A stretch of DNA of 64,000 nt. Source: Chondrosia reniformis (taxonomy: Eukaryota > Porifera > Demospongiae > Chondrillida > Chondrillidae). Positions 592 through 63,707 of this stretch are shown here, piece after piece. Where the stretch lies: positions 9,314,501 through 9,378,500 of the forward strand of contig OX359189.1 in the NCBI GenBank assembly GCA_947172415.1, written 5' to 3'. The position numbers and the translations under genes are program-made. Positions within the stretch are counted from its first letter, which is position 1; the number at the start of each line of letters is the position of its first letter. The notes beneath the pieces are model-generated. The model was not told the origin of the DNA and searched no databases. It saw only the letters and a program-made list of their open reading frames with translations.

Positions 592-3527
592 ATGGCTGGC
601 CAGTGTTGCATAGTGATCCTATATTTTCTTTCAATACTTAAAGGTATGGCAAACATTCATTTCAGTACAAATTTATTAGTAATTAAGGTAATGGACATGC
701 ATATATGTGCAGTATATACCTGCATGTTTGTAATTCTCTGATGTATTTATGTATAGCTACATATAGGATGTATTAGCTGTATATACTTCTTATTAGTTGT
801 AGAAGCTACTGTTACACTCACTGCTCCATTAAGTCCTCCTTGTTTTGGTCAAACCTACAAGTTAACATGTACACATCCTGTACTTGATGCTGATACTAAT
901 GTCAGATGGGAGAGAAATGGAACTGGATTTAATCCTCAGTCTACTCCTAATCATGATGATGATGGTAATACAACTACTACTACTCTGACTATCACTGTGA
1001 CCAGAGAAGAGTTTGAGAATAAAGTCTACACTTACAGATGTTTCACATTTGATGTCACTCGTGGTTTATCTGATCCAAATAGAGTCATTAGTAATGAAGT
1101 TACTGTAGATCCACCTGGTGAGTGTACATTATGACAGTTTAATAGAGCTATACCTAGATTGATGCTTTCAGTCATTTATGTATGTAATATTTAATATAAA
1201 TAACATTAGCACTATTATATTCTCTAAGACCTGTTTATGCATATGACTATTATATCGGGCCTATACAACTGGGCATGTATACCCTATACAGATTTGGTTT
1301 TATACATTATGTGAGCATACATGTGTTTACATGTTACCATGCACTCTAGCAATTGGTTTTAGATTACTCATTTATCAAACTAGTATGTATTGCACTACCT
1401 CTTCAGATGTTCCTCTACCACCAGTTAATATTGGATATATGAGAACATCCAATTCCATCTCAATTGACGGGCAATCAGAAGATGTGTGTTTTATTGTCGT
1501 GTCATATGAGGTAGAAGTACTACAAGATGGCCACCCCACTGTACTGATTAATGATACTAGTACTACCATTGAAGAACTGGTTCCTAATACAACATATGCC
1601 ATAGTTATCAGAGTTGTTAGTGGAACAGTGAAGAGCAAACCAGTTCAAGTGATGGTTACTACATTAAGTGAGTATTTGTTACTGTAACAATGTACTACTA
1701 TTTATTTGTTACAATGTACTACTAGTTATAAACTTATACTTCATACAGTGGAATGTAAACATCAAATTCACACTGTCTTTGATTCAAAATGAAAAAAAGA
1801 AGGCAATTTTATCTAACCTTTCACTATTGTAGTACAATAGTAAATTACCCTACAGGACATGTGTTCTACCTAATTTTGTAAATGTCAACTTTTCAACAGA
1901 GAATACAACCTTAAAGGCTAGTTCATTAGAGAACTATCAAGTCACTTTGACATGCAAACATCATGACAGAAATGATGTATCCTTCAATCAAACATCAACC
2001 TTTTGGAGGAAGAACAATGGTAGCTTTGTAGAGTACTCTGAAGGAGTAGTTAAGAGTGGAAATGAAGAGACAGTTCTGTACATCACTGCTGAATATGGAG
2101 ACACGTTCACTTGTGCACTGAAACTACAAAATGGAGGAGTGGAGGAAAGTAACACAATCATAGTTCAAAGACCTGATGAACCTCCTCAATGTGAGATTGA
2201 TACTTTATATAGAATCGAGTGAAATTACTTATATACACACATGTACATACTTACGACTTACATACGTATAAAGTATTATATATTATGCATTCTCTATATA
2301 ATATTTCAGTTTGTATATATGTATATAACACTATATGAAGGCTTTTGCTGTCAATGGGATATCTGATATATTGAATACATCTCATTAACAGGTACTTCTG
2401 CAGCTGTAGCAAGTGACTGTGGGTCATTGATAAGTGCTTTTGGAGTAGTAACTTCTCTTTTGATAATCAGTTGGAGCATACTCATAGCTACCTGTGTTGT
2501 AGCTGTTTGTATGTACAAGAAGGTTCATATCAGTCGTAAGAATGAGAAGTATACATCTCAGGAAGGTAATAAGACAGAGAATATATATACAGTACACAAC
2601 CTGGATATAAGTATATAAAACTAGAAATATTAAAAATTTTCTACAAAAATAGTGAAGATGTAGGGATGGCATAAAAAGTAGAGAAACAAGAAAGGGATGT
2701 TACGTATACACAGTGAAGCATTAGCTATGCATGAATCATACAACACCCTTGCTTGTAGGATTCATGTATAGCTAATGCTTCACTGTGTATACGTAACATC
2801 CCTTTCTTGTTTCTCTACTTTTTATGCCATCCCTACATCTTCACTATTTTTGTAGAAAATTTTTAATATTTCTAGTTTCTGTACTTTTTATGGAGCATGG
2901 GCTAGGAATTAGATTCTTATAATTAAAATCATTTTGGTTTCGCAATCTTAGACTGAATATGACGTCATTAAAATGGCGACTTTATTGAGGCCTTGACTCT
3001 AGGGTCATGAAAACCGTCATGCTCAATAATAGCGTTATCGCTCTCGCTTCTACAAAAGAATACAGCTCGGAAAATTTGCAGTAGTTTCGTGTAACAATTA
3101 GTCCAAAAGCTTATATAGTTTTTTAGTTATGGCTGACGAAGAAGAAGAAGAAGAAGAAGAATATGAAGAAGACGAAAATGGGAATTTTTAAAGTTTATTA
3201 TTTCGCCAGCGGGACATATTCGCTTGCTTTTAAGGTCTATTTAGAGTATGTATATTGTATATTTAGCTATACATAGCCTTGTTTTGTCGATTTTCGGCCT
3301 ATTTCGGGATTTCGCTCCTATACCAATGTATGGGGAAAACGAAAAAAACCGTGTCATCCCTACATAGGGAGTACTACCGTACTCCCTGATAGGTTCCCCT
3401 CTCTCTTATTATGTGCAAATTAGTGACTAAAGAAGGTGCAATTAAAGGGGGAATGGAGAGGAATCCTGCTTATATACCTATTGAGATGAGTCAGATTGAA
3501 GATAAACCAACTTATGTGAACTTGTGA
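592..3527 (+). CDS. Receptor 1: type 1 Ig-FN3-Ig transmembrane protein with ITAM-like tail
   Basis: Six exons, all joined in phase 1: 592-643 (signal peptide MAGQCCIVILYFLSILK), 797-1117 (Ig1), 1407-1667 (FN3), 1900-2190 (Ig2), 2392-2565 (TM), 3424-3527 (tail); about 400 aa. Ig1 shows KLTC, WERNG and TYRC as the B-strand Cys, core Trp and F-strand Cys. Ig2 shows TLTC, FWRK and FTC. The TM segment is SLLIISWSILIATCVVAVC followed by MYKK. The tail carries NPAYIPI, ten residues, then YVNL. The last intron is enlarged by MITE copy B, but its donor and AG acceptor remain. The FN3 core Trp (WQQ elsewhere) is Gly here, and the Ig2 lead-in Cys (ENCQ) is Tyr. Likely a cell-surface recognition receptor; the ligand is unknown. 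Confidence 0.8.
2620..3392 (+). mobile_element. MITE copy B in the last intron of receptor 1
   Basis: Other family members read straight through the sequence interrupted here (an AGTATATAGG context), so the insert is defined by comparison, probably with TA duplication. Its left part, 2620-2876, is the same hairpin as copy A. The right part includes a very short frame with an acidic run, MADEEEEEE, at 3129, followed soon by a stop. The two copies lie inverted around receptor 1. No transposase is seen. Confidence 0.6.
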
Positions 3528-3639
3528 TAATACGTATTACGTATACTGTAATAGTCATACTTGTATTACGTATGTATATGTATATGTATACTGTAATATG
3601 TTCTTCTACAAAATTTGTTATGAAAATTCACTGAAAACT

Positions 3640-3722
3640 GATGAGAATTAGAATGAGAATGAGGAGTATGAGAATGAGAATGAGAATGAGAATGAGAATG
3701 AGAATGAGAATGAGAATGTGAG
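3640..3722 (+). repeat. (GAGAAT)n microsatellite at tail-to-tail junction
   Basis: A hexamer array between the 3' ends of receptors 1 and 2. The same array sits at the other tail-to-tail junctions of the cluster. The rest of 3528-3974 is AT-rich 3' flank. Confidence 0.9.
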
Positions 3723-3974: not shown

Positions 3975-6007
3975 TCACAAGTTAATATAAATCTGTTTAT
4001 TTTCAATTTGATTCATCTCAATAGGTACATAAGCAGGATTCTTCTCCATATCTTCATTTTTATTAATAGTACTTTCATTACAACTGAATGGCACTACACA
4101 ACAATGATATTGATATACAATAAATTGCAATTGGAAGACATATATATTATAGAAACTGATTCATAGATATAAGTGCATATATGCAAACTGTATAATGCCT
4201 TACGTTTCAATGTTTTCACATTGGAAGATGTTTCACTGGAAATAGTTCTCTTGCAAAGAACTACAACACATGTAACTATGAATATGCTCCAACTGATTAT
4301 CAATAATGAAGCTAACACACCAGCTGCCACCATCCAAGATTCTGTGGCACATGTACAATCTATTACCAGAAATATATTAATTAGCATTCCAAGAATATAT
4401 ATTACAGTAGCAAATGCATAAATTATTTTACATGTGACTGAGACTTACTCATTTTCATAGTTGATACAAAGCTATGTACAATTTCACTTGGAATATTTGG
4501 ATTTTCTCTACAATAAGCTCCAACTCCAATCTCATAAGATGTACCAGGAGTAAGACATTCAATAGTGTAGGATGTTTCAGTAGTGGTTGCATTCCTCAAA
4601 CTAGATCCACCTCCACTCTGTTGCCATGTTACCTCATACATGAAGGTACAGTTCTCAAAACACTCATCACTGTGGGACCACATCAGGGAGATACTTGTAT
4701 CAGAAGGGACGGATGTGAGTAAGGTTGGAGGAAGGGGAGAACCTGAATGTATATATAATTATGAAAGTGTAACACTATTCTAGAAATTATCCGCATTCTT
4801 TACCTCTGGCACTAGCAGTCACAGGTTCACTCTCCTCCATACTACCATCAGCATACACAACAGCACAAGAGTAGTTAGCCTCTCCATTGTACATACTGTT
4901 AACATTCCAAACCACCCTCAGAATACTTGACATAAGAGTCTCTTCAATGACACAACTACCATCACATTCATCAATCCTTGTACCATCCTTCATCCACACT
5001 ATACTGTAGGATCCTTCAGGGAATTCCCCTCCAATACCACATTTTACTTCTGTACATGACATTTCCTGATTTACTACAATTCTCAATATATCTGGAAATT
5101 ATTCAAATATGCACAAGAATTATATTTATAGACAATCATACACTGCAAATGAGGTACATACCCAATGTTGTAATCTCCACTTCCACTGTATCACTGGTAA
5201 TATCTGGATACTGTACACTCTGTGCTGTGATCATAAAGATGTAACTTGTATTTGGTGTTAGTGACTCTACTGTGATGGTCATGTTAGTAGTTGTATATGA
5301 TGTACACTGAGATGGATCAGGTACTCCATTGACAAGAAGACAGTGAGTGATGTTGAAGAAGACATCTTTGTAACATTTTATCTCTTTGTAGCTCCAAGAT
5401 AAAGTGACTGAAGTTGCCCTCAAAAGAGATTGGAATTGATATGGTACATTACCAATAACAGCTGTACAATTCAATAGATTCAGACATCAATCATTTTAAA
5501 TTGAACAATAATGAAAGTAAATATATTAAGACTTACTAGTTGAGTTGATAGTGACATCGTTGCTCTCTAATGTTGAAAAGAAAGTTGCATTGAATCGCTT
5601 AAGTACATAACACTTGTAGTATGTTCCTGGTTCATGTACTCCTTTAGTGATATTGATCTGTAGTCCAGTGACAGTAGAGTTGATAGGAACACTCTGTTCA
5701 GTAGTGTTATCAGGTACAAATACTGTTCCATTTCTACTCCAGAACACAGTATTTAGGTATCCACTACTCACATCCAGTACAGCATGTGTACAGTTTATCT
5801 GATAAGTCTCTCCAAAACACACTTCATCAGGTAGATCAGTCAGAGTGATTTCCGCTGAGTTTGCTAATTAAATGAATATTACTAAAACAAGATGTATCCT
5901 GTTTGTATACCAAATTTCTGTTATTGTCATGTCATACCTTCGAAATCCAACTTGAAGCAGACAACAAATAGAAATTGCGATAAAAGACTAAACGCACTAT
6001 TAGTCAT
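3975..6007 (-). CDS. Receptor 2: type 3 Ig-FN3-Ig-FN3 transmembrane protein with ITAM-like tail
   Basis: Seven minus-strand exons in phase 1: 6007-5938 (signal MTNSAFSLLSQFLFVVCF), 5863-5537 (Ig1: INC, FWSRNG, YYKC), 5461-5162 (FN3a: LSWSY, NTSYIFMI), 5091-4804 (Ig2: VKC, IVWMKDG, YSC), 4742-4449 (FN3b: LMWSHSDECF), 4359-4204 (TM: SLLIISWSIFIVTCVVVLC), 4093-3975 (tail); about 517 aa. The tail reads NPAYVPI, ten residues, YINL. All splice sites are GT-AG and no stop interrupts the model, so it looks intact. It shares its promoter with receptor 3. The TM and tail resemble those of types 1 and 2, so the types share an origin. Confidence 0.8.
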
Positions 6008-6211
6008 GATGCTCAGTAGGTATATATACTGCTAAACAGACACAGTCTAGATTTATAGTCCCATACTACAGACGGTAGTTCTAGGGAAAGCCCCCAATCT
6101 GCTATGATCTATGATCAGTCGCTTCATGAAAATGATGATGTTTTTGTAAACGCTTTCGTCGATCATTGTGGTATTTAGAACTAACAGTATACACAATTAC
6201 ATATATACAAG
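6008..6211. promoter_or_regulatory. Bidirectional promoter between receptors 2 and 3
   Basis: Only 204 bases separate the divergent ATGs. The stretch holds a kB-like site (GGAAAGCCCC, 6085-6094, reverse complement GGGGCTTTCC) overlapping a CCAAT box at 6094-6098, then near-palindromic ATGATC repeats. Large parts of this sequence recur in the four other head-to-head gaps. Confidence 0.6.
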
Positions 6212-8704
6212 ATGGATTCTGACCACCACGGTTCAGTGACGCTATTCCTTCTGCCTTTAATATTACAAGGTACGTAATAATTTAGACTGTGCATGTAACT
6301 AGCCGCTTTTTACTTTAAAGGTTTAGCATTTTTAACGATATCATTTTATGATCTCCTACACTTTTGTATATACCGAAATAGCAATGGTTATTTACTATGC
6401 ACATATAGAGGAGTGATCTATTTACACTATACTAGTGGTAGATTTAGGGATGGTGAAATACCACTAGAGTTGAGTTGGTATCAGCCAACCTTCCAACTAT
6501 ATAAACTAGCCAAACCCTTCTCTGTCGCATTTTTATACTTTTGTACCCCTTATAGATTTGTAGACCTGCTCTAATAAGTGCATGTATTACACACTATTAA
6601 TTACATTAATTCTCTCTAATATGGCTATTCTTTTACATTAATACTATTAGTTGTAGAAGCTAATGTTACACTCACTGCTCCATCAAGTCCTCCTTGTTTT
6701 GGTCAAACCTACAAGTTAACATGTACACATCCTGTACTTGATGGATATATTTTTCTTGGGTGGGAGAGAAATGGAACTGGATTTAATCCTCAGTCTACTC
6801 CTAATCATGATGGAGATGATCCTACTCCAAATACTACTAGTCTGACTATCACTGTGACCAGAGAAGAGTTTGAGAATAAAGTCTACACCTACAGATGTTT
6901 CACATTTGATATTAATGTTGGTTTATCTGATCCAAATAGAGTCATCAGTAATGAAGTTATTGTAGATCCACCTGGTGAGTCAGGTTTAGTGAACTTGATA
7001 CATAACCTTCCAGCCATTATCTCTTGTCACTTAACTTCAATGCCCAAAACCTATGTACTATATGTAGAACCTTATTATTGTCTTATAGATGTCAGCTAGA
7101 AGCTATATATATCTTTTCAGACTATTATATTGCAATTGTGAACTATATGTACACAAGTATTCTGTAGGTAGCTGTGTATTCATTAAAATGTATTGTGTAT
7201 ATACGTATATAATAATCTAGCAATTTTTATAATTATTTTGTTACAAATTGTATGTAGAGGTACCAAGCCCACCATATGATATTCTGACTGCGAGAACCAC
7301 TTCTTCAGTCTCAATTCGATGGCAGCATCACGATGTGTGTTTTCCAGACATTACGTTTGAAATAAGAATACTACAAGATGACAGATACCTTATAGTTTCT
7401 GATGGGTACCATGACAACATTACCATTGAAGGACTAGTACCCAATACAACTTATACTATAGTAATTGGAGCAGTGGATGGTGGGAGTGTGCAAGTGATGG
7501 TTACAACATTAGGTGTGTTACTGTGGGTATGTATTAGATAGTATATTCTCTAGTAGTAGTAATATACTGTATGTACACTGTATATTCTCAAGCACTCTTT
7601 TACTTAATGTACATGTTCCAGTCAGTTTATAGATTCACTGAGCGCTTATATATTAAATGTTCTGAGGACATATTTGTGTGGTATAAGTATTTACTCTTCA
7701 CAGTTGTATCTTTAAGAAAAGATTTAAAATTTATCATAGGAAGAATTAGAATATTAAGACTTCCCACATGAATACGTACATATCAAACCACAAGTTTTAT
7801 AACTTTCCAACAGAGAATACAATCCTAAAGGCTAGTTCATTAGAAAACTGTCAAGTCACTTTGACATGCAAACATCATGACAGAAATGATGTAGCCTTCA
7901 ATCCAAAATCAACCTTTTGGAGGAAGAACAATGGTAGCTTTGTAGAATACTCTGAAGGAGTAATTAAGAGTGGAAATGAAGAGACAATTCTATCCATCAC
8001 TGCTGAATATGGTGACATGTTCACTTGTGCACTGAAACTACAAAATGGAGGAATGGAGGAAAGCAACACAATCACAGTTCAAAGACCTGATGAACCTCCT
8101 CAATGTGAGATTGATGCTTTATATAGGATCGAGTGAAATTACTTACACACATACAGTACATACTTACGACTTACGTACTTATAAAGTAAATTACCTATAT
8201 ACACACATATACATACTTCCGACTTATATATTATGCATTCTCTATATAATATTTCAGTTTGTATATATGTATATAACACTATATGAAGGCTTTTGCTGTC
8301 AATGGGATGTCTGATATATTGAATACATCTCATTAACAGGTACTTCTGCAGCTATAGCAAGTGACTGTGTGTCATTGATAAGTGCTTTTGGAGTAGTAAC
8401 TTCTCTTTTGATAATCAGTTGGAGCATACTCATAGCTACCTGTGTTGTAGCTGTTTGTATGTACAAGAAGGTTCATATCAGTCGTAAGAATGAGAAGTAT
8501 ACACCTCAGGAAGGTAATGAAACGGAGAATATATATACGGTACACTACCTGGATATAAGTATATAGGTTCCCCTCTCTCTCTTATATGTATGCAAATCAG
8601 TTACTAATGAAGGTGCAATTAAAGGGGAAATGGAGAGGAATCCTGCTTATATACCTATTGAGATGAGTCAGATTGAAGATAAACCAACTTATGTGAACTT
8701 ATAA
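6212..8704 (+). CDS. Receptor 3: type 2 Ig-FN3-Ig transmembrane protein with ITAM-like tail
   Basis: Six phase-1 exons: 6212-6269 (signal MDSDHHGSVTLFLLPLILQ), 6651-6974 (Ig1), 7258-7512 (FN3 starting EVPSPPYDILTARTT, core IRWQHHDVCF), 7814-8104 (Ig2), 8340-8513 (TM), 8601-8704 (tail); about 401 aa. Ig2, TM and tail are nearly the same as in type 1 genes, while signal peptide and FN3 are type-specific. The Ig1 C-strand region is GYIFLGWERNG, unlike the DADTNVRWERNG seen in most relatives. The tail has NPAYIPI-x10-YVNL. The model looks intact. Confidence 0.82.
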
Positions 8705-12760: not shown

Positions 12761-12798
12761 ATTCCCTCCTCTCTCTCTTATATATGTATGCAAATCAG

Positions 12799-12905
12799 TT
12801 ACTAATGAAGGTGCAATTAATGGGGAAATGGAGAGGAATCCTGCTTATGTACCTATTGAGATGAGTCAGATTGAAGATAAACCAACTTATGTGAACTTAA
12901 AGTGA
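12799..12905 (+). CDS. Orphan tail exon 1
   Basis: An intact copy of the receptor cytoplasmic exon with its CAG acceptor and pyrimidine tract but no TM exon in front. It encodes VTNEGAINGEM, NPAYVPI and YVNLK then stops. Its 3' flank, through about 13300, matches the flank of receptor 6. It could be an alternative last exon for receptor 3, about 4.3 kb upstream, or a leftover duplication edge. Confidence 0.55.
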
Positions 12906-13348: not shown

Positions 13349-16253
13349 ATGGCTGACCAGTGTTGCATAGTGATCCTATATTATCTTTCAATATTTAAAG
13401 GTATGGCAAACATTCATTTTAATACGTAAGTGTATATAGTATTGTACATGTGTATATACAATGCAAGTTACAATACCAATCTAATTTATATAAATAATTC
13501 ATATAATATGGCTCCAAGAAAGGAACTAGAAACAGAATTAGTATAAAACTCATTTTAAATTATATTATGTTTATAATTGTCTGTTGTATATACATATAAT
13601 AATAATAATGATTTTTATTAATGTGACATGCTATTCTGAAAAAAAGATCAGTCAGAAATAGCCCAACCCATGGTGGGTTTACAAGTCACTAGCAGGGGGT
13701 ATACATTTCCAGGGCCATGCAGGGAGGGTGTATGTATTACAAAACCTTTATGGAACAAAAATTAGTGAGAATGAGTGAGAGATTTACGATGAATGTACAT
13801 ACTGTAAATATAATTTGAGATCTTTTGATTTGGGTATGTTAGGATGAAGTGGTTTTTTTGGATACTTGGGTAAGAGTAGAAGTTAGGGGATAAAAGTGAG
13901 CATTCAGCAAAAAGATTACATCTTATATGATTGAAAGCTGGACAGGTTGTAATAAAATGAGTGGAGTCCTCTATTGCACCACAGTTACACAGCTGGCAAA
14001 TCCTGCTCTCCAGATCAACCTTAGGGTGTCTCAATCTGCCCTTCTCAATTTCGAGAGGGAGGCACCCACACCTCAGGGCTGCCAGGACTCTCCTTTTATC
14101 AAAATTACCAGTCCTTATATAGTCATCAGTTGAGGGTTATACGTATACAGCCATATGATGTATAGCTGTATACTTCTTATTAGTTGTAGAAGCTACTGTT
14201 ACACTCACTGCTCCATCAAGTTCTCCTTGTTTTGGTCAAACCTACAAGTTAACATGTACACATCCTGTATTTGATGCTGATACTAATGTTAGATGGGAGA
14301 GAAATGGAACTGGATTTAATCCTGAATCTTTTCCTAACCATATTGGTGATGACAACCCAGATCCAACTACTACTACTCTGACTATCACTGTGACCAGAGA
14401 AGAGTTTGAGAATACAGTCTATATTTACAGTTGTCTCACTGTTAACACAAGTACTGACACTGTTGTAAGAATCTACAGTAATGAAGTTACTGTAGATCCA
14501 CCTGGTGAGTCAGTTTTAGTGTACATTATGACAGTTTAATAGAGCTATACCTAGATTGATGCTTTCAGTCATTTATGTATGTAATATTTCATATAAATAA
14601 CATTAACACTATTATATTCTCTATATCTAAGACCTGTTTATGCATATGACTATTATATCCGGCCTATACAACTGGGCATGTATACCCTATACAGATTAAT
14701 TTGGTTTTATACATTATGTGAGCATACGTATACATGTGTACATGTGTTTACATGTTACCATGCACTCTAGCAATTGGTTTTGGATTACTCATTTATCAAA
14801 CTAGTATGTATTGCACTACCTCTGCAGATGTTCCTCTACCACCAGTTAATATTGGATATATGAGAACATCCAATTCCATCTCAATTGACTGGCAACAAGA
14901 AGATGTGTGTTTTATTGTCGTGTCATATGAGGTAGAAGTACTACAAGATGGCCGCCCCACTGTATGGACTAATGATACTGGTATTACCATTGAAGAACTG
15001 GTTCCTAATACAACATATGTTATAGGTATCAGAGTTGTTAGTGTAACAGTGAAGAGCAGACTAGTTCAAGTGATGGTTACTACATTAAGTGAGTATTTGT
15101 TACTGTAACAATGAACTACTATTTATTTGTAGTTATAAACCTTGCAAGTACATTCAAGTATTCAAGTATCTTATTTTAACTGGGGAGACCTTTAGCCAAT
15201 GGCTATTATTCTAGTGTACCCCTTTAGAGGTGTAATTACAATATAACTTCATTTATACATTGGAATTTTACACTGTCTTTGATTCAAAGTGAAAAAAGAG
15301 GCAATTTTATCTAACCTTTCACTATTGTAGTACAATAGTAAATTACCCTACAGGACATGTGTTCTACCTAATTTTGTAAATGTTGACTTTTCAACAGAGA
15401 ATACAACCCTAACAGCTAGTTCATTAGAGAACTGTCAAGTCACTTTGACATGCACACATCATGACAAAAATGATGTAGCCTTCAATCCATTATCAACCTT
15501 TTGGAGGAAGAACAATGGTAGCTTTGTAGAGTACACTGAAGGAGTAGTTAAGAGTGAAAATGAAGAGACAGTTCTATCCATCACTGCTGAATATGGAGAC
15601 ATGTTCACTTGTGCACTGAAACTACAAAATGGAGGAATGGAGGAAAGTAACACAATCACAGTTCAAAGACCTGATGAACCTCCTCAATGTGAGATTAATA
15701 CTTCACATATAGGATCGAGTGAAATTACTTACACACATGTACATACTTACAACTTACGTAAGTATAAAATATTATATTATGCATTCTCTATATCTCATTT
15801 TGTATATATGTAAATATATCACTATGTGAAGGCTTTTGCTGTCAATGGGATGTCTGACATATTGAATACATCTCATTAACAGGTACTTCTGCAGCTGTAG
15901 CAAGTGACTGTGTGTCATGGATAAGTGCTTTTGGAGTATTAACTTCTCTTTTGATAATCAGTTGGAGCATATTCATAGCTACCTGTGTTGTAGCTGTTTG
16001 TATGTACAAGAAGGTTCATATCAGTCGTAAGAATGAGAAGTATACATCTCAGGAAGGTAATGAGACAGAGAATATATATATATACGGTACACAACCTGGA
16101 TATAAGTATATATAGGTTCCCCTCTCTCTCTTATATGTATGCAAATCAGTTACTAATGAAGGTGCAATTAAAGGGGGAATGGAGAGGAATCCTGCTTATA
16201 TACCTATTGAGATGAGTCAGATTGAAGATAAACCAACTTATGTGAACTTGTGA
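13349..16253 (+). CDS. Receptor 4: type 1 Ig-FN3-Ig transmembrane protein with ITAM-like tail
   Basis: Exons 13349-13400, 14184-14504, 14828-15088, 15398-15688, 15883-16056 and 16150-16253, all phase 1; about 400 aa. Domain order is as in receptor 1. Its Ig1 carries a distinct loop set: NPESFPNHIGDDNPDP between the C and D regions, and SCLTVNTSTDTVVRIYSNEV in the F-G region where most relatives read RCFTFD. Receptor 8 shares the second loop, which suggests a recent common source. FN3 has the intact core IDWQQEDVCF. Tail NPAYIPI-x10-YVNL. Intron 1 contains a LINE fragment but the splice signals are unaffected. The model looks intact. Confidence 0.8.
13600..14138 (-). mobile_element. 5'-truncated LINE fragment in intron 1 of receptor 4
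   Basis: Comparison with intron 1 of receptor 8 defines the insert edges. On the minus strand, 14034-13762 encodes a Cys/His module, CQLCNCGAIEDSTHF followed by CPAFN, typical of the region after the reverse transcriptase of non-LTR elements. The 3' end, on the left, finishes in an (ATT)n-type tail, as in I/R1-like LINEs. Only the end of the element is present. Confidence 0.65.
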
Positions 16254-18179: not shown

Positions 18180-18392
18180 GATGCTCAGTAGGTATATATA
18201 CTGCTAAACAGAGTTCAGTTCACAGTCTAGATTTATAGTCCCATATTACAGACGGTAGTTCTAGGGAGAGCCCCCAATCTGCTATGATCATATGATCAGT
18301 CGCTTCATGAAAATGATGATGTTTTTGTAAACGCTTTCGTCGATCATTGTGGTATTTAGAACTAACAGTATACACAATTACATATATACAAG
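18180..18392. promoter_or_regulatory. Bidirectional promoter between receptors 5 and 6
   Basis: Gap of 213 bases, homologous to 6008-6211. The kB-like site is GGAGAGCCCC at 18265-18274 and still fits GGGRNNYYCC on the reverse strand. The CCAAT box next to it is kept. Confidence 0.55.
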
Positions 18393-27715: not shown

Positions 27716-27742
27716 CCTCTCTCTTATATATATGCAAATCAG

Positions 27743-27849
27743 TTACTAATGAAGGTGCAATTAAAGGGGAAATGGAGAGGAATCCTGCTTATATACCTAT
27801 TGAGATGAGTCAGATTGAAGATAAACCAACTTATGTGAACTTAAAGTGA
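27743..27849 (+). CDS. Orphan tail exon 2
   Basis: Intact tail exon with CAG acceptor after a C/T-rich tract. It encodes VTNEGAIKGEM, NPAYIPI, YVNLK and a TGA. It lies downstream of receptor 7, which lacks a usable acceptor of its own. The following 28 kb flank (27850-28263) matches 12906-13322. Confidence 0.55.
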
Positions 27850-40824: not shown

Positions 40825-40905
40825 CCATTTTGAAGTTATATTTTACATATCTATTATGTACATACATACTAAGACACAATTCAAATTCTTGCAATTGTAT
40901 ATAAT

Positions 40906-45150: not shown

Positions 45151-45174
45151 CTCTCTTATATATAGGCAAATCAG

Positions 45175-45278
45175 TTACTAATGAAGGTGCAATTAAAGGG
45201 GAAATGGAGAAGAATCCTGCTTATGTACCTATTGAGATGAGTCAGATTGAAGATAAACCAACTTATGTGAACTTGTGA
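45175..45278 (+). CDS. Orphan tail exon 3
   Basis: Tail exon with a CAG acceptor, encoding VTNEGAIKGEMEK, NPAYVPI and YVNL then TGA. Unlike orphans 1 and 2 it is followed by the tail-to-tail flank and a type 3 gene rather than a type 1 gene. The missing type 1 exons may have been deleted. Confidence 0.55.
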
Positions 45279-47893: not shown

Positions 47894-50438
47894 ATGAATT
47901 CTGACCAACACGTTTCAGTGACGCTATTCGTTCTGCCTTTAATATTACAAGGTACGTAATAACTTAGACTGTGCATGTAACTAGCCGCTTTTTACTTTAA
48001 AGGTTTAGCATTTTTAGCGATATCATTTTATGATCTCATACACTTTTGTATATACCGAAATAGCAATGCTTATTTACTATGCACATATAGAGGAGTGATC
48101 TATTTTAATCAGTACTAGTGGTAGATTTAGGGTCGATGGTGAAATACCACTAGAGTTTGAGTTGGTAGCAGCCAACCTTCCAACTCTATAAACTAGCCAA
48201 ACCCTTCTCTGTCGCATTCTTATACTTTTGTACCCCGTATAGACTTGTAGACCTGCTCTAATAAGTGCATGTATTATACACTTGAATTCTCCCTTATAAT
48301 TGTCTGTAATATGGCTATTCTTTTACATTAATACTATTAGTTGTAGAAGCTACTGTTACACTCACTGCTCCATCAAGTCCTCCTTGTTTTGGTCAAACCT
48401 ACAAGTTAACATGTACACATCCTGTACTTGATGCTGATACTAATGTTAGATGGGAGAGAAATGGAACTGGATTTAATCCTCAGTCTACTCCTAATCATGA
48501 TTTGGTGGATGTTACAGATCCAAGTACTACTACTCTGACTATCACTGTGACCATAGAAGAGTTTGAGAATATCTACACTTACAGATGTATCAAATTTGAT
48601 CTCAATGTTGGTTTCAATGATCCAAATAGAGTCATCAGTAATGAAGTTACTGTAGATCCACCTGGTGAGTCAGGGTTAGTGTACATTATACATACCCTTC
48701 CAGCCATTATCTCTTGTCACTTAACTTCAATGCCCAAAACGTACTATATGTAGAACCTTATTATTGTCTATAGATGTCAGCTAGAAGCTATATATATCTT
48801 TTCAGACTATTATATTGCAATTGTGAACTATATATATGTACACAAGTATTCTGTAGGTAGCTGTGTATTCATTAAAATGTATTGTGTATATACGTATATA
48901 ATAATCTAGCAATTTTTATAATTATTTTGTTACAAATTGTATGTAGAGGTACCAAGCCCACCATATGATATTCTGACTGCGAGAACCACTTCTTCAGTCT
49001 CAATTCGATGGCGGCATCACGATGTGTGTTTTCCAAACATTACGTTTGAAATAAGATTACTACAAGATGGCAGATACCTTATAGTTTCTTATGGTTACCA
49101 TGACAACATTACCATTGAAGGACTAGTACCCAATACAACTTATACTATACTAATTGGAGCAGTGGGTGGTGGGAGTGTGCAAGTGATGGTTACAACATTA
49201 GGTGGGTTACTGTGGGTATGTATCAGAGAGTATATTCTCTAGAAGTAATATACTGTATGTACACTGTACATTCTCAAGCACTCTTTTACTTAATGTACAT
49301 GTTCCAGTCAGTTTATAGATTCACTGAGCGCTTATATATTAAATGTTCTGAGGACATATTTGTGTGGTATAAGTATTTACTCTTCACAGTTGTATCTTTA
49401 AAAAAGATTTTGAATTTATCATATAAAGAATTAGAATTAAGACTTCCCACATACATACATATCAATTGTCTAACAACTTTTCAACAGAGAATACAACCCT
49501 AACAGCTAGTTCATTAGAGAACTGTCAAGTCACTTTGACATGCAAGCACCATGACAGAAATGATGTAGCCTTCAATCCAAAATCAACCTTTTGGAGGAAG
49601 AACAATGGTAGCTTTGTAGAATACTCTGAAGGAGTAGTTAAGAGTGGAAATGAAGAGACAGTTCTATCCATCACTGCTGAATATGGAGACACATTCACTT
49701 GTGCACTGTAACTACAAAATGGAGGAATGGAGGAAAGTAACAGAATCACAGTTCAAAGACCTGATGAACCTCCTCAATGTGAGATTAATACTTTATATAG
49801 GATCAAGTGAAATTACTGATATACACACATGTACATACTTACGACTTATGTATGTATAAAGTATTATATATATATTATGCATATATAATATTTCAGTTTG
49901 TATATATGTATATAACACTGCACTTATAAGTGTTGCTGATGCTCAAATCATATCCAACCAACCAATTATGAACGCAACAAGTACCCCTTATTACTCCATA
50001 TATAACACTATATGAAGGCTTTTGCTGTCAATGGGATATCTGATATATTGAATACATCTCATTAACAGGTAATTCTGCAGCTATAGCAAGTGACTGTGTG
50101 TCATGGATAAGTGCTTTTGGAGTAGTAACTTCTCTTTTGATAATCAGTTGGAGCATACTCATAGCTACCTGTGTTGTAGCTGTTTGTATGTACAAGAAGG
50201 TTCATATCAGTTGTAAGAATGAGAAGTATACATCTCAGGAAGGTAATGAGACAGAGAATATATATACGTACACAACCTGGATATAAGTATATAGAGGTTC
50301 CCCCTCTCTCTCTTATATGTATGCAAATCAGTGACTAATGAAGGTGCAATTAAAGGGGAAATGGAGAGGAATCCTGCTTATATACCTATTGAGATGAGTC
50401 AGCTTGAAGATAAACCAACTTATGTGAACTTAAAGTGA
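47894..50438 (+). pseudogene. Receptor 14: type 2 receptor with an early stop in Ig2 (possible soluble form)
   Basis: Exons 47894-47951, 48341-48664, 48947-49201, 49488-49778, 50069-50242 and 50332-50438 keep type 2 order and splice sites. In Ig2 the codon after FTCAL is TAA (49709-49711), a one-base change from the AAA of all sisters. Translation ends at about residue 286, before the TM segment, leaving signal peptide, Ig1, FN3 and most of Ig2. The downstream TM and tail stay open (NPAYIPI, MSQLED, YVNLK), so the stop seems recent. Ig1 has NPQSTPNHDLVDVTDPSTTT and CIKFDLNVGFNDPNR loops. Either a new pseudogene or a secreted ectodomain. Confidence 0.72.
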
Positions 50439-50519
50439 CCATTTTGAAGTTATATTTTACATATCTATTATGTACATACATACTAAGACACAATTCAAAT
50501 TCTTGCAATTGTATATAAT

Positions 50520-54535: not shown

Positions 54536-55049
54536 TTCAATACACATTAAATTTGTAATTAATGCACATTTAGAGCTGCAACTCTGTCTACAACTTGTTG
54601 AAGACAGTTACAGAATATAATATACATACATGAATTTAGCCTGAGCTAATATGACTACATCAATCAAACATCAATACTAACTGTTACTGTTCTAATCTCT
54701 ATTTTACTAGCCATTATTGTATTGTTGGCTTTCCCTATACTTAATATTTTTAAATTACTTGGTACACTGCAAGTTTATAAACTACGTAAAACCAGATTGA
54801 GGATCGAGCTGGAAATGTGATTTCTATAAGAAATTCCCACTCTACCAGTACCATGCTAATACATCTTTTTCTAGATTATCTGCATTGTGATAATATTAAA
54901 TGTGGGGAAACTATATCATCTAAGAGACCAATTTGAAGAAAAAATGTCCGATTGTTGTAGACGCAATTAACTTGAGACAATGACTGTATATATACATACA
55001 TACATACATACATATATACATACATACATATACATACATACATACATAT
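54536..55049. other. Non-coding stretch with (TACA)n microsatellite
   Basis: No gene is seen. About 54540-54970 is unlike the other blocks. A TACATA tetramer array runs from about 54988 to 55046 up to the receptor relic. Confidence 0.5.
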
Positions 55050-55393
55050 GTGTGTCGTGGGTAAGTGCTTGGACATACAAACAGCTACAACACAGGTAGC
55101 TATGAGTATGCTCCAACTGATTATCAAAAGAGAAATTGTCACTCCAAAAGAAGGTTCATATCAGTCGTATTAATGAGAAGTATACGTACATCCCAGGAAG
55201 ATTTTGAGACAGAGAATATATATATACGGTACACAACCTGGATATAAGTATATATAGGTTCCCCTCTCTCTTATATGTATGCAAATCAGTTACTAATGAA
55301 GGTGCAGTTAAAGGGGAAATGGAGAAGAATCCTGCTTATATACCTATTGAGATGAGTCAGATTGAAAATAAACCAACTTATGTGAACTTATAA
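55050..55393 (+). pseudogene. Receptor relic: TM exon with an internal inversion plus tail exon
   Basis: The TM exon starts normally (TGTGTGTCGTGGGTAAGTGC), but bases 55071-55150 are the reverse complement of the expected sequence. Read on the minus strand they give FGVTISLLIISWSILIATC, the receptor 12 variant. From 55151 the + strand frame resumes as KVHISR-like sequence with small changes. The tail exon 55290-55393 is intact (VTNEGAVKGEM, NPAYIPI, IENKPTYVNL) with a good acceptor. No Ig or FN3 exon precedes it. It cannot make a normal receptor. Confidence 0.7.
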
Positions 55394-58378: not shown

Positions 58379-60897
58379 ATGGCTGACCAGTGTTGCATAG
58401 TGATTCTATATTTTCTTTCAATACTTAAAGGTATGGCAAACATTCATTTCAGTACAAATTTATAAGTAATTAAGATAATGGACATGCATATATGTGCAGT
58501 ATATACCTGCATGTTTGTAATTCTCTGATGTATTTATGTATAGCCACATATAGGATGTATTAGTTGTATACTTCTTATTAGCTGTAGAAGCTACTGTTAC
58601 ACTCACTGCTCCATCAAGTCCTCCTTGTTTTGGTCAAACCTACAAGTTAACATGTACACATCCTGTACTTGATGCTGATACTAATGTTAGATGGGAGAGA
58701 AATGGAACTGGATTTAATCCTCAGCCTACTCCTAATCATGATGGAGATGATCCTACTCCAACTACTACTACTCTGACTATCACTGTGACCAGAGAAGAGT
58801 TTGAGAATAAAGTCTACACTTACAGATGTTTTACATTTGATGTCACTCGTGGTTTATCTGATCCAAATAGAGTCATCAGTAATGAAGTTACTGTAGATCC
58901 ACCTGGTGAGTCAGGGTTAGTGTACATTATGACAGTTCAATAGAGCTATACCTAGATTGATACACATCTTTGGCGGTAGTGCGGATGGGAGTCAACCACT
59001 TCTGCTTCTTCCCAATTAATCTCATGCATACGGTCAACTGCATGCTCTGCTATCACTGACTGGGCTATGTTCCCTGATGTCAATGCCCTCTTGTGCTCCT
59101 TCAAGCGGTGTTCCATAGTCCTGCCAGTTTGGCCAATGTACACTCTGGGACATGAACCACACGGGATGCGGTAAACCACGCCAGCTCGTTGCTGTAGGGG
59201 CGTGCGGTCCTTCAACCTCACCAACGTCTGTCGAAGTGTGCGGTGAGGCCGGAAGCATGTGCGAACCCCGAGTGGGGCCAATATCCTTCGGATGGTCTCA
59301 GATAGGTGACGGATGTACGGTAGGGTAACAGTAGCTGTGGGTGGATCCTGCTCGGGCAGTTGTGGGCGTGGCTGTGGGCGCCAATTCTTCACCACTAGCC
59401 TTTTGTAATATCATCTTTTCACTGATGAGGGCCCAGGATTGGGCCGAAACGTTTGAATTAAGTGACTTTTTTAGGCTAGTGGAGTTTCCATATCATTATA
59501 TAATGCAGAAACTTAGCCACACAGAAACCTTCCAAATATTTATTTGTAGTTATAAACCTTTCAAGTACGTACATTCAAGTATTCATAATCAAGTATTCGA
59601 GTATCTTATTTCAACTGGGGAGACCTTTAGCCAATGGCTATTATTCTAGGTATCCAGTGTACCCCTTTAGAGGTGCAATTACAATATAACTTCATTTATA
59701 CAATATTTTACACTGTCTTCAATTCAAAGTGAAAAAAGAAGCAATTTTATCTAACCTTTCACTATTGTAGTACAAGAGTATATTACCCTACAAGACATGT
59801 GTTCTACCTAATTTTGTAAATGTCAACTTTTCAACAGAGAATACAACACTAACAGCTAGTTCATTAGAAAACTGTCAAGTCACTTTGACATGCAAACATC
59901 ATGACAGAAATGATGTAGCCTTCAATCCAAAATCAACCTTTTGGAGGAAGAACAACGGTAGCTTTGTAGAATACTCTGAAGGAGTAATTAAGAGTGGAAA
60001 TGAAGAGACAGTTCTGTACATCACTGCTGAATATGGAGACACGTTCACTTGTGCACTGAAACTACAAAACGGAGGAATGGAGGAAAGTAACACAATCATA
60101 GTTCAAAGACCTGATGAACCTCCTCAATGTGAGATTGATACTTTATATAGGATCGAGTGAAATTACTTATATACACACATGTACACACTTATGACTTAAG
60201 TATGTATAACACTATATGAAGGCTTTTGCTGTCAATGGGATGTCTGACATATTGAAAAATCTAAGATACCATTTTCCTACATGCTATATGCCTATTCTGT
60301 AAAAGAGCCTATAGGGGAACTAAAGAGAGCTTTAATTGGATAAGGATACAGGAGTCTTTCCTTCCTTCTTTTCCCTTCTTTCATCTTCTTCTCCACTGGG
60401 TCAGACAGCTGTTTCTAGAATTCCACCCTTCATCAGTGATCCTGGGAGTCTTTGTCTTTTTCTTTATCTTTATCTTCTGTGAATCCTTGGCATGTCTGAC
60501 ATATATTGAATACATCTCATTAACAGGTACTTCTGCAGCTGTAGCAAGTGACTGTGTGTCATGGATAAGTGCTTTTGGAGTAGTAACTTCTCTTTTGATA
60601 ATCAGTTGGAGCATATTCATAGCTACCTGTGTTGTAGCTGTTAGTATGTACAAGAAGGTTCATATCAGTCGTAAGAATGAGAAGTATACATCTCAGGAAG
60701 GTAATGAGACAGAGAATATATATACGGTACACAACCTGGATATAAGTATATATAGGTTCCCCCTCTCTCTCTTATATGTATGTAAATCAGTTACTAATGA
60801 AGGTGCAATTAAAGGGGAAATGGAGAGGAATCCTGCTTATATACCTATTGAGATGAGTCAGATTGAAGATAAACCAACTTATGTGAACTTAAAGTGA
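58379..60897 (+). CDS. Receptor 15: type 1 receptor without FN3 (Ig-Ig-TM-tail)
   Basis: Exons 58379-58430, 58582-58905 (Ig1), 59838-60128 (Ig2), 60527-60700 (TM) and 60791-60897 (tail); about 315 aa. The FN3 exon and its flanks are replaced by a Penelope-like fragment. All exons are phase 1, so Ig1 can splice to Ig2 in frame. The 5' half is closest to receptor 1 (CFTFDVTRGLSDPNR loop, same upstream flank). The TM ends VAVSMYKK with Ser for Cys. The last intron is 90 bases and fully open, so its retention would add GNETENIYTVHNLDIS and more without a stop. Tail NPAYIPI-x10-YVNLK. Intron 4 carries a second insert. Confidence 0.75.
58961..59538 (-). mobile_element. Penelope-like element fragment (GIY-YIG end) replacing an FN3 exon
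   Basis: The minus strand encodes LPYIRHLSETIRRILAPLG, then a GIY-YIG endonuclease core (VVYRIPCGSCPRVYIGQTGR, HRLKEHKRAL, AEHAV), the arrangement found C-terminal to the reverse transcriptase in Penelope-like elements. The transcriptase itself is absent. Edges come from comparison with receptors 1 and 4. A 10-base inverted repeat (59392-59401 and 59473-59482) encloses a hammerhead-like motif on the + strand. Confidence 0.8.
59422..59450 (+). ncRNA. Hammerhead ribozyme-like core in the Penelope-like fragment
   Basis: CTGATGA at 59422-59428, a GC-rich stem II (GGCCC 59430-59434 with GGGCC 59441-59445) and GAAAC at 59446-59450 make up the conserved hammerhead core. Penelope-like elements are known to carry such ribozymes. 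It is antisense to the GIY-YIG frame, which suggests a rearranged or inverted insertion. Stem III and the cleavage site were not established. Confidence 0.5.
60257..60491. mobile_element. Short insert in intron 4 of receptor 15
   Basis: Flanked by a near-duplicated target, ATGTCTGACATATTGAA (60240-60256, again from 60492). The minus strand contains CTGATGAAGGGTGGAATTC and TAGAAACAGCTG, which resembles a weak hammerhead or Penelope-end motif. No coding potential is seen. The class is uncertain. Confidence 0.45.
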
Positions 60898-61167
60898 CCA
60901 TTTTGAAGTGACAATTATGCTGGGATTTTGGGGTTTATATATAATCAGGAGTCGACTCTATACATATGTACTTATGAACCTAAAAATATATATTAAACTT
61001 TGACTATACATGTAATGTTGTGTTATCTATTGTGTATCACATGATCTCACACATCTTAGTATCATCCTGATCAGTTATGTTTAATCACTATTTTAGTTGA
61101 CTTAAGTTGCTGTGCATATGTTGTTTTCTACACAACTTTTGGTTATTACTATCGAACCCTTGATGCA

Positions 61168-61585
61168 CACATCATGACAGAAATGATGTAGCCTTCAATT
61201 CAAAATCAACCTTTTGGAGGAAGAACAATGGTAGCTTTGTAGAGTACTCTGAAGGAGTAATTAAGAGTGGAAATGAAGAGACAGTTCTGTACATCACTGC
61301 TGAATATGGAGACACATTCACTTGTGCACTGAAAGTACAAAATGGAGGAATGGAGGAAAGTAACACAATCTCAGTTCAAAGACCTGATGAACCTCCTCAA
61401 TGTGAGATTGATCATGAAATATATATATATATATTGTTTACACACATGCTTACATATAAATTGGAGATGTATAAAGTATTATTATGCATTCTTTATATAA
61501 TTATAAGTGTTTCAGTTTGTAAGCGTATATACTGTCAATGGGATGTCTGACATATTGAATACATCTCATTAACAGGTACTTCTGC
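61168..61585 (+). pseudogene. Receptor relic: partial Ig2 and first bases of a TM exon
   Basis: 61168-61401 matches Ig2 exons from about HHDRNDVAF to PDEPPQC with its donor, but the start of the exon and its acceptor are missing. At 61576-61585 the TM exon begins (GTACTTCTGC) and is cut off by a CT-rich run. Bases 60898-61167 are 3' flank like 12906-13190, joined directly to the relic. Confidence 0.7.
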
Positions 61586-61936
61586 TCTCTCTCTCTTCAT
61601 TAGCAAGATAATATCTACAAAATGTGATTGACTATCCCACGGTACAGCTTCTGCCTTTGACTGTACACTTTGGCCTCGTGGTCCACAATGATAATTGGTG
61701 ATAACTCGTGATGTTCTGGTGGCTACATTGCCGATTCACACGCAGGTCACATGAATAAGATACTTCTATAACACGTCTGTAGGCACTAATAGGAAGATCT
61801 TCAAAAATTGGAAATTCGCTGACATGTTCCACACTGTAAAGGTGTGCTTTAGCTTATTATCACTTCATTAGATAACATGAATAACTTGACATATTGCAAT
61901 TGACTATATAAGTCATAATTGGTCTTAAAATATGGT
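61586..61936. other. Unassigned stretch with a minus-strand frame
   Basis: A minus-strand frame at about 61832-61632 (EHVSEFPIFEDLPISAYRRV, then CDLRVNRQCSHQN) follows an AG and is followed by a stop. It could be an unrecognised exon of the minus-strand gene here or of a mobile element. No domain is recognised. Confidence 0.3.
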
Positions 61937-63707
61937 TTATAATTGGCTAATGTTTATTTGTACATCAGCAGGATTCTTCTCCATGTCCTCATGTTCTGAC
62001 TGGTTATAAGTATCTATAAAGAAGCAAACAAAATGAAGCAATCTTATACATTCAATGAAGTGATCATAATATATTAGAGTTATTTATGTATTAATTGTTT
62101 AGACTGGGTCATCAAGTGAAAGATGAGGTTAATTGTGCTAGGTTTCCAAAGATTTTAGATATTAGAAATCTTATACACAACAAATTTCCATAAATGGTTT
62201 AATAATAGACATCATTGTCAATTGAATCTGGACTTTAGCCCGCCCACTCATAAGGACATAAAAGGCCTTTATATACGTTTATATCATAAAATGTCCCTGT
62301 GTGCAAGTTACCAAATGGTCTCTAACCCCATTGATTATGCAAATGTATGCAACCATGCATTAATCGTCAGTATTCTTAGCTCCCTCTCAAAGCAAATCAA
62401 ATCTGCTGTGGTTATTAGCTAAGACCCCTTTAAGACTGGAACTTTTGTTGGCATGCAACTTTTGTCAATATATGGCATTCAGAAGGGTCATCTTCAAGGT
62501 GTGAAAAGGTAATTGATATAGGCCATGTGTTCTACCTGTATACGTAAACTACTACTCTCTATGCAGTAGTTGTGGATTACAAGGCCTGCAACAGCGTGAC
62601 TAAAGTCTTGTACTGTTTAATATACTTGTGATTATCCTAGGAGTCACTTTGATCCCTTTAACTCTGTAACTTTTAGTAGTACTTGATTGTAACTTTTATA
62701 CGATAGACACATTATATTATACTTTATACCTTTAGGTTGTATAGGATGATCACTTCCTCTTTTAGATCTCTTCCTCATACAACAAGCCACAACACATGTA
62801 ACTATGATTATGATCCAACTGATTATCAGCAGTGAAGCTAACACACCAGATGAGGCTATCCAAAATCTAGATCTCAGCCCATCTACTGTATATATGAAGT
62901 AACAGAAAGGTAGCAGACCAAATCCATGTCAAAATGGTATAAATTATAATTTACCATTATTAAAATTTGTGTTCACTTTCAACTTTGTACTTTTACTGAC
63001 TAAAACTACATTTTGAAAGCAATAAGCAATGGCATCCACTCCAATGAGGTAAATAGTTGGTGTCAAATCTTCAATGGTGTAGTATGTTTCATTCGTAGTT
63101 ACTTTTCTCAAACTAGATCCATCTCCACTCTGTTGCCATGTTACCTCATACACAATAGTGCAGTGCTCATAACATCCTACACTGTGGGACCACATTATGG
63201 AGATTGTACTCTCAGATATATTTAGAAGTGCCAATTTATTAGGTGGGTTGAAGGATTCAGCATCACCTATATAATATGCAGAAAAATTCTTCTGGATCAA
63301 TCAGTTGTATATATGTGAATGCACACAAATGTTCATATATATTTTGCATGGTAAATATATTATGCCTGTATACTACGTATATAGATCTCTAAAATTTTTA
63401 TTTGCATATTTATATACGTATATGTCATATATATATATATGTAATATACATTGTACGTATTATGTAAAACTATATATTTTATGTGTATACTGTATTAGAT
63501 TTTCGTACATAAATGTCAGCAACTGACCTTCACATTTTGGTTTTGCCTCCTTGAAGCTCCAAATGTTCCTAATCGGACAAGTTAGGTACTTTCCCTCTGC
63601 AAGTACACATCCTTCATTGCACTCCACAACAAGTAATTCACCAGATGTGGACACACTCTTTGTGTTACCATAGTAGCCATTCATTGGCTTGCTCAAAACA
63701 GGGCACA
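61937..63707 (-). CDS. Receptor 16: divergent CCP-FN3 transmembrane protein, tail without tyrosine motif (5' end outside)
   Basis: Minus-strand exons in phase 1: 63707-63528 (CCP/sushi: CPVLSKPMNGYYGN, then VVECNEGC, LTC, W and a final PKC), 63266-62955 (FN3: IMWSHSVGCYEHC, VTWQQSGDGSSLRK), 62882-62730 (TM: VLASLLIISWIIIIVTCVVAC then CMRKRSKRG) and 62013-61937 (tail). FN3 and TM are clearly related to FN3b and TM of type 3. The tail reads DTYNQSEHEDMEKNPAD, then VQINISQL and a stop: the NPAY tyrosine is Asp and the YINL tyrosine is absent. More 5' exons must lie beyond the window. The long intron 62014-62729 holds AT-rich sequence without a recognised gene. It is an old outgroup of the cluster with a different ectodomain. 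Confidence 0.65.

Follow-up and report, generated by a model that had tools for sequence, protein, structure and literature searches.

A tandem array of immunoglobulin/fibronectin receptor genes with ITAM-like tails on chromosome 1 of the sponge Chondrosia reniformis, a candidate recognition system

The Alr genes of Hydractinia encode clustered single-pass receptors of the immunoglobulin (Ig) superfamily, and the vertebrate leukocyte receptor complex (KIR/LILR) is a tandem Ig receptor array with copy-number change. KIRs are not known to have a fibronectin type III (FN3) domain and signal through tails carrying an immunoreceptor tyrosine-based inhibition motif (ITIM) or through separate adaptors with an immunoreceptor tyrosine-based activation motif (ITAM). 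Sponge aggregation factors are secreted proteoglycan core proteins with Calx-beta, VWD, and wreath domains. The receptors of sponge self/non-self recognition are unsettled in the literature, where the aggregation factor genes are one named candidate (PMC12065747, PMC11999971, PMC5450542). In one account, the mechanisms of invertebrate allorecognition are called a "complete mystery," the candidate proteins are unconserved among sponges, cnidarians, and ascidians, and ITAM/ITIM-type allorecognition signaling spans cnidarians to mammals (PMC12065747). Here we describe an array of Ig/FN3 receptor genes in a 64,000-nucleotide stretch of chromosome 1 of the sponge Chondrosia reniformis (C1:9314501-9378500, forward strand; hereafter "the window"). 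Searches of open-licence PMC papers listed none whose title or opening lines of the abstract describe such an array or an ITAM-like receptor cluster from a sponge.

We interpret this locus as a tandem array of paralogous single-pass recognition receptors with a variable outer Ig domain, whose ITAM-like tail would be read by Syk-family kinases and Grb2 and whose two gene classes, B and A, would be coexpressed in pairs. We put the probability of this reading at about 60%. Judged from its sequence, the array is a strong candidate for a system by which a sponge recognizes self, neighbors, or microbes, and it supplies concrete loci for genotyping, expression, and testing.

The array resembles several described systems in part. 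In Hydractinia, too, candidate allorecognition genes carry ITAM/ITIM-type tails and come with associated signaling genes (PMC12065747); however, the sponge genes mix Ig and FN3 domains, and their tails are short and near-uniform (NPxYxxI-x10-YxNL at the C terminus), with no ITIM type seen. No Alr chain occurred among 58 Protein Data Bank (PDB) matches, nor among the best 60 of 158 matches to a profile of the membrane-distal Ig domain (Ig1), in searches that included no comparison aimed at Alr. Botryllus FcoR (fuhc) is also a large linked Ig receptor family with tyrosine motifs and a partner encoded alongside, for which the same account gives an architecture of V-type Ig, Sushi, two C2 Ig, and transmembrane (TM) segments with a canonical ITIM, hemITAM, or core tyrosine motif (PMC12065747). 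One relative in the window has a Sushi-like exon (under cutoff), but the sponge array is otherwise Ig-FN3-Ig(-FN3) with two tyrosines and no ITIM seen. In contrast to KIR/LILR, the sponge tyrosine pair lies within the receptor itself. The oyster protein CgIgIT2, as summarized in the literature, is an invertebrate Ig receptor with a TM segment and an ITAM; it is a single receptor with five Ig domains, whereas here an array contains FN3. Finally, the Pfam matches of two sponge receptors were fn3, ig, and weak others, with no Calx-beta, VWD, or wreath domain among them, unlike the aggregation factors.

To define the genes, we ran a six-frame exon search on the window together with 130 kb of flanking sequence (194 kb in total), followed by splice modeling of loci; genome-wide scans covered 117,379,552 bases in 15 contigs, and the published genome is given as 117.37 Mb in 14 chromosomes plus the mitochondrion (PMC12181767). 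Loci with fewer than three exon hits, B-like loci carrying an A-type Ig1, and the divergent loci A19, B20, and A33 were left out of the final modeled set. In the window, exon search and splice models gave 15 multi-exon Ig/FN3 receptor loci, 10 of class A and 5 of class B, 10 of them intact and 5 broken or partial. Across the 194 kb, 30 class A or B loci were modeled and 18 were intact under a strict rule; the locus at C1:9303770-9306401 failed that rule solely by its other-type leader and was intact in earlier modeling. Class A genes lie on the plus strand and encode leader, Ig1, FN3, Ig2, TM, and tail; class B genes lie on the minus strand and add a second FN3 exon after Ig2. In two template genes (401 and 517 residues), all introns are GT/AG and phase 1, and the frame runs from an ATG through the shared tail to a stop. 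The Ig domains, leader, and single TM segment are those of an Ig-superfamily cell-surface receptor, with the hydrophobic leader and TM assigned by eye. The features of the window are as follows, in window coordinates (splice models unless another source is given; FN3a and FN3b are types of FN3 exon).

592..3527, plus strand: class A gene with leader MAGQCC, Ig1, FN3a, Ig2, TM, and tail; intact (splice model, exon hits)
592-643, 797-1117, 1407-1667, 1900-2190, 2392-2565, 3424-3527, plus strand: exons of the gene at 592..3527
3975..6007, minus strand: class B gene with leader, Ig1, FN3a, Ig2, FN3b, TM, and tail KQIYINL; 517 amino acids, intact
6008..6211, no strand: 204-bp intergenic stretch between the start codons of a divergent B/A pair (nine such stretches in all); possible bidirectional promoter
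6212..8704, plus strand: class A gene with leader MDSDHH, Ig1, FN3b, Ig2, TM, and tail; 401 amino acids, intact
6212-6269, 6651-6974, 7258-7512, 7814-8104, 8340-8513, 8601-8704, plus strand: exons of the gene at 6212..8704
12789..12899, plus strand: relic, lone tail exon, NPAYVPI...YVNL (tail scan, exon hits)
13349..16253, plus strand: class A gene, intact
16741..18226, minus strand: class B gene, leader and Ig1 missing; broken
18393..20992, plus strand: class A gene (FN3b), intact
21388..23688, plus strand: class A gene; usual tail acceptor lost, intact only via a downstream AG
27733..27843, plus strand: relic, lone tail exon (tail scan, exon hits)
28290..30607, plus strand: class A gene, intact
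30746..32559, minus strand: class B gene whose TM exon continues into a His-Ser coding repeat, without tail exon; broken
32866..35385, plus strand: class A gene (FN3b), intact; tail ending YVN-stop, without the final L (tail scan, splice model)
35810..37863, minus strand: class B gene, one in-frame stop in TM
38078..40824, plus strand: class A gene (FN3b), intact
45165..45275, plus strand: relic, lone tail exon, tail-to-tail with the next B gene (tail scan, exon hits)
45606..47680, minus strand: class B gene, intact
47894..50438, plus strand: class A gene (FN3b), one in-frame stop in Ig2
55044..55390, plus strand: relic, reversed TM piece (55044-55160, minus strand) and lone tail exon (55280-55390) (tail scan, exon hits)
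58379..60897, plus strand: class A gene without FN3 exon; partial
61164..61424, plus strand: relic, lone Ig2 exon (exon hits)
about 61940..63747, minus strand: sixteenth, divergent relative with Sushi-like, FN3b-like, and TM exons and the tail NPADVQINISQL (exon hits, Pfam)

A preliminary description of this DNA, made from its letters, had placed a dense cluster of Ig/FN3 receptors with a repeated exon structure, including shared TM and tail exons, in a sponge-like genome. The species of origin and the two classes of splice model bear this out, and its starting point, position 592, coincides with the ATG that opens the first gene model. Its sixteen receptor loci and several relics become 15 multi-exon loci, a sixteenth, divergent relative, and several relics; the tail of the divergent relative reads NPADVQINISQL and has thus lost the tyrosine, with Asp standing where the first Tyr would be and the second motif missing. 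The Sushi-like exon of this relative scored E 0.0013, under the curated Pfam cutoff, and its FN3/TM part has a copy at C1:9445923-9446426. In the partial gene at 58379-60897, a splice from Ig1 to Ig2 would keep the frame, since the introns are phase 1. Of the domains named in that description, FN3 was confirmed above the Pfam cutoff (1.6e-13 in the class B protein, 1.2e-5 in the class A protein), but the Ig matches of the two full proteins were weak and under it. Among 37 aligned Ig1 members, 24 matched PF00047 at E<=0.1 (best 2e-5), and the Ig1 profile searched against PDB recovered Ig chains, SYG-2, and titin (best 1.9e-5).

The cytoplasmic tail is nearly uniform among these genes. Scanning all six frames of the window recovered 18 NPAY tails (14 plus-strand, 4 minus-strand), and all 18 read NPAY[IV]PI, then ten residues, then YxN, with the consensus NPAY[IV]PIEM[SN]Q[IL]E[DN]K[PQ][TI]Y[VI]N(L)-stop. 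Seventeen end in YVNL or YINL, so that the ending Y(V/I)NL reported earlier gives way only at position 35323, where the tail is YVN-stop. Under the looser ITAM spacing of x6-12, the pattern YIPI/YVPI-x10-YVNL/YINL fits in 17 of the 18. The ITIM pattern (S/I/V/L)xYxx(I/V/L) is absent from these tails, position -2 being P at every first tyrosine of the 18 and, apart from a single Q, at every second tyrosine as well. The two templates do not have the build of a receptor tyrosine kinase either: their tail stops three residues past the second Tyr, and no kinase was found by Pfam.

Beyond the window, AAYCCNGCNTAYRTNCCNATHGARATG matched exactly at 52 sites genome-wide (18 in the window), versus none for a reversed control. 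With up to three mismatches, this first half of the tail occurred at 93 sites, versus 3 for the control, and a hand count of the list places 65 of these 93 on C1 at 7.7-9.47 Mb. The cluster is larger than had been reported. To examine the second half, we picked 20 distant loci by the first half of the motif alone; they amount to fewer than 20 independent cases because several are near-copies of each other. Y-x-N-[LVIF] was kept in 11 of them, two with a longer spacer. Three had the Tyr in place without that Asn, two had a Tyr only further on (QYEF), and four had no second Tyr, one of these with Phe for the first. Around the first tyrosine, +1 (V/I/T/M/E) and +2 (P/S/Y/C/A) vary while +3 is I, V, L, or F, a constancy biased by the selecting pattern, which required Ile there. 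The core of the tail is thus NPxYxx(hydrophobic) ... YxN(hydrophobic) at the C terminus. In the 21-codon tail, of which 35 distinct DNA versions were compared, the proportions of nonsynonymous (pN) and synonymous (pS) differences were 0.104 and 0.558 in the last four codons and 0.184 and 0.285 in the linker, a ratio biased by a collecting pattern that demanded Y, N, and L/F. At two loci, C1:8.63 and 8.74 Mb (L049 and L053), the spacer of the family tail is longer and the ending is YINV/YINI, possibly a separate signaling subtype.

At the other end of the protein, variation is centered on the outer Ig domain. With exons bearing stops or frameshifts excluded, nonsynonymous (dN) and synonymous (dS) divergence in class A were 0.154 and 0.160 for Ig1 (n=18), 0.038 and 0.104 for Ig2 (dN/dS 0.37), 0.031 and 0.047 for TM, and 0.025 and 0.038 for the tail. 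Class B Ig1 gave 0.134 and 0.158. Three loop segments of Ig1 (before the C-strand Trp, C' to E, and F to G), placed by Ig landmarks only, hold most of the difference in class A: dN 0.345 and dS 0.316 in the loops, versus 0.048 and 0.060 in the framework. The contrast was weaker in class B (0.219 and 0.266 versus 0.073 and 0.074). The framework cysteines were invariant in all 37 aligned Ig1 sequences. The pairwise homoplasy index (PHI) test with 1,000 permutations detected recombination in Ig1 of class A and of class B (p=0.001 in each) but gave no clear signal in class A Ig2 (p=0.083). Of 32 overlapping tests on the pairwise distances of different exons, only 3 showed a correlation at p<0.05, each between adjacent exons. 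In a copy on C10, the F-to-G segment is of a type in common with window genes while other parts differ. Intron identity is 93-95% in FN3b genes and 93-96% in B genes, where only the Ig1-FN3a intron falls lower, to 69.5%; the class B variable block therefore extends into FN3a (dN 0.103, dS 0.213). Because loop dS is high while the framework and the introns of FN3b and B genes are near-identical, the pattern suggests exchanged cassettes or long-kept variants.

Syk reads ITAMs, Grb2 binds pYxN, and PTB domains bind NPxY. The genome has 82 SH2 matches. Two SH2 exons at C6:6.837-6.842 Mb had ZAP-70 (5.7e-25) and SYK (6.5e-22) as best PDB matches, above other families, and the frames after them contain the kinase motifs VHRDLAARNVL, DFG, and WYAPEC (by eye). 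From these matches we assign the C6 locus, for which the model is partial, to the Syk-family tandem-SH2 kinases, the family that serves as ITAM reader; it did not appear among the 134 of 1,104 kinase candidates that were scored. The genome also has a pair of Grb2-like genes on C4 (SH3-SH2-SH3, by eye), SH2-plus-kinase frames on C9 that are Src-type by arrangement, and Csk-like genes on C4 (by eye). Other candidates for a Syk gene were set aside by eye: a triple-SH2 frame on C9, the CSK-like genes on C4, and SHARK-, SHP2-, and PLC-gamma-like exons. Within the C9 segment L029 (C9:1352501-1357500), positions 2820-4007 of the minus strand form a single uninterrupted frame (395 residues) that has three SH2 matches, and inspection by eye showed no kinase in this 5-kb segment; a second triple-SH2 frame lies about 4 kb away. 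At C14:0.59-1.14 Mb, at least 26 kinase frames of similar score form another tandem expansion (hand count of the matches listed).

The two gene classes are interleaved in a regular order. Each of the nine leader-bearing B genes in the 194 kb is in a head-to-head pair with an A gene, the two ATGs lying 205-307 bp apart, and the nine intergenic stretches have a mean identity of 87.5% (minimum 74%). The A partners have an MDSD/MNSD-type leader, shortened to MDHHGS in one, and an FN3b exon; the exception is 9303770-9306401, an exon mosaic with FN3a. Of nine B genes with a tail and a preceding A gene, seven lie tail-to-tail with that A gene (416-899 bp) and two face a lone tail exon. A haplotype or assembly artifact was rejected as the main cause of the array, given that the 194 kb contain no N and the copies differ and recur in regular order.

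Relatives are spread through the genome. Exon-level matches numbered 154 with Ig1 plus FN3 parts as the query and 121 with FN3 plus Ig2 parts; both figures are minimum exon numbers, the weakest matches may belong to other Ig genes, and no gene count was derived from them because one gene can match repeatedly. They concentrate on C1 at about 7.7-9.46 Mb and occur also on C3, C4, C5, C8, C9, C10, C11, C13, and C14, among others; the two-tyrosine tail is common to both gene classes and present on several chromosomes. Protein database searches for relatives returned 1, 1, and 81 proteins, one search scoring 7,998 candidates, and all 18 of the 83 that were compared with the sequence of this genome have close relatives here.

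If the favored reading is correct, the membrane-distal Ig domain would be the variable ligand-contact module, and gene conversion or unequal exchange would have carried loop cassettes at its three segments from gene to gene, with the framework, lower domains, TM, and tail homogenized among copies. By analogy with known members of these signaling families, ligand contact would lead Src-type kinases to phosphorylate the two C-terminal tyrosines, in NPxYxx[IL] and YxN[L]; the phosphorylated pair would then be bound by the Syk-family tandem-SH2 kinase, like an ITAM of long spacing, with Grb2 at YxN. Head-to-head B/A pairs would be coexpressed as partner chains, a proposal drawn from gene order only. 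A bolder version, which we think unlikely, makes C1 at about 7.7-9.47 Mb a sponge histocompatibility-like complex: an Ig/FN3 megacluster with combinatorial outer-Ig loop cassettes, obligate head-to-head pairs expressed from shared promoters, and an ITAM-like tail coupled to Syk and Grb2. Were this so, clustered variable Ig receptors would perform tyrosine-motif recognition signaling in sponges, below the cnidarian record, and the array would extend ITAM/ITIM-type recognition logic to one of the earliest animal branches.

A number of observations weigh against the favored reading; they are given here together with two rival explanations, one of the tail and one of the array. A canonical ITAM has a spacing of x6-8, and all 18 window tails have x10; Pfam found no ITAM family in two full proteins at E up to 1; and 9 of the 20 distant relatives lack YxN. 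We regard the ITAM label proposed at the outset as plausible on functional grounds but unproven as a matter of membership. Among the array genes, the TM segment and tail are too uniform to show constraint (tail dN/dS 0.65 in class A, bootstrap 0.12-3.57, and 1.21 in FN3b genes). The tail might instead serve adaptors or trafficking, with NPxY for PTB domains or endocytosis and YxN for Grb2 alone, in adhesion or cell-sorting molecules that do without Syk signaling. The noncanonical spacing agrees with such a role, as do the Grb2-like genes, the Asn at +2 of the second site that occurs with V, I, M, A, K, or N at +1, and the relatives that retain the NPxY half and have lost the other. Yet the hydrophobic +3 residue of the first tyrosine in all 20 distant tails, a count with the bias given above, is as expected for YxxI/L, and a Syk-family tandem-SH2 gene is present; we consider an adaptor role quite possible while leaning against it. 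That the array is largely decaying, its Ig1 diversity neutral and due to relaxed constraint, would account for the 5 broken loci among 15 and the four lone tails, and for an Ig1 dN/dS of 0.96 (bootstrap 0.72-1.34). Because this ratio is about 1, positive selection is not demonstrated. FN3a-gene introns, only 76% identical before Ig1, 86-87% around FN3, and 92-93% elsewhere, differ by 7-24%, a divergence that also favors the decay view; Ig1 therefore stands out clearly from the sequence around it only in FN3b and B genes. FN3 exons themselves gave dN/dS of 1.59, 0.95, and 0.94 (0.48 for B FN3a), with the values near or above 1 meaning that variability is centered on Ig1 and not restricted to it, and the loops were delimited after inspection of the alignment. 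However, class A loop dS (0.316) exceeds the divergence of FN3b introns and most B introns (about 4-7%), and under relaxed constraint alone dS would have stayed near that of the introns instead of rising. The invariant cysteines and the constrained Ig2 argue likewise against decay, which we judge very improbable. Lastly, the interleaved, head-to-head order may be functional or may simply have been inherited through duplication of a multi-gene unit.

Two further rival proposals, the main candidate roles, concern what the receptors recognize. Under allorecognition proper, fusion or rejection would be decided by a histocompatibility locus consisting of the array or of the larger cluster on chromosome 1, as proposed for Hydractinia Alr and Botryllus fuhc. 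In its favor, four class A Ig2 proteins from an 831,104-base contig match their nearest copy at 89-91% over 102-135 residues, as with strongly differing haplotypes, in a comparison that covered the 194 kb plus seven other 10-kb loci; for one of the four (P0068), the top-scoring alignment is longer, at 66%. Of the database proteins on a 10,369,955-base contig, three match the region at 98-100% and one more matches C1 at 100%, and an alternate haplotype of C. reniformis (GCA_947172445.1) is stated to have been deposited (PMC12181767), where a public RNA-seq run, ERR10177766, is listed as well. Against a haplotype origin, for a C10 member a 708,469-base contig is identical while a chromosome-sized 8,106,400-base contig differs by 5%, and we treat the second-haplotype explanation of the 89-91% matches as only a lead. 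Since immune receptors would give the same pattern, allorecognition proper seems doubtful. The variable outer domain might instead track microbes, not conspecific cells, in innate immune or symbiont-recognition receptors. The 53 bacterial genomes reported as binned from the same specimen (PMC12181767) offer a setting for this, the turnover of copies and the cassette-like variation would suit an arms race against microbes, and the oyster Ig receptor with an ITAM senses microbes, according to a review. The sequence names no microbial ligand, however, and no carbohydrate- or lipopolysaccharide-binding domain was among the Pfam matches, which makes an immune or symbiont role tentative at best, if slightly easier to entertain.

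The remaining features of the window lie between and within the receptor genes, and no Rfam match and no tRNA was found. A block of 3-4 kb occurs in four copies (about 9801-12900, 24781-27850, 42213-45275, and 51991-55390), parts of which are up to 100% identical, and a lone tail exon stands at the end of each. We considered whether the lone tails are the last exon of a third gene type; in the one block of four inspected (8900-12900), the open reading frames (ORFs) contained no TM, Ig, or FN3 exon recognizable by eye, and the tails were classed as relics. A GIY-YIG-like ORF (58952-59410, minus strand; E 0.002, under cutoff), presumably of a Penelope-type element, occupies the expected FN3 exon place of the partial gene at 58379-60897. 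Within the first intron of the gene at 13349-16253 lies a weak match (E 0.037) to zf-RVT, a reverse-transcriptase-associated zinc-binding domain (13762-14136, minus strand). A glycine-zipper ORF at 56034-56360 (minus strand) matched Gly-zipper_Omp at 2.8e-4, under the Pfam cutoff, and glycine-zipper-like pieces at 8958-9148, 40820-41089, and 50434-50703 (by eye) lie 3' of three class A genes.

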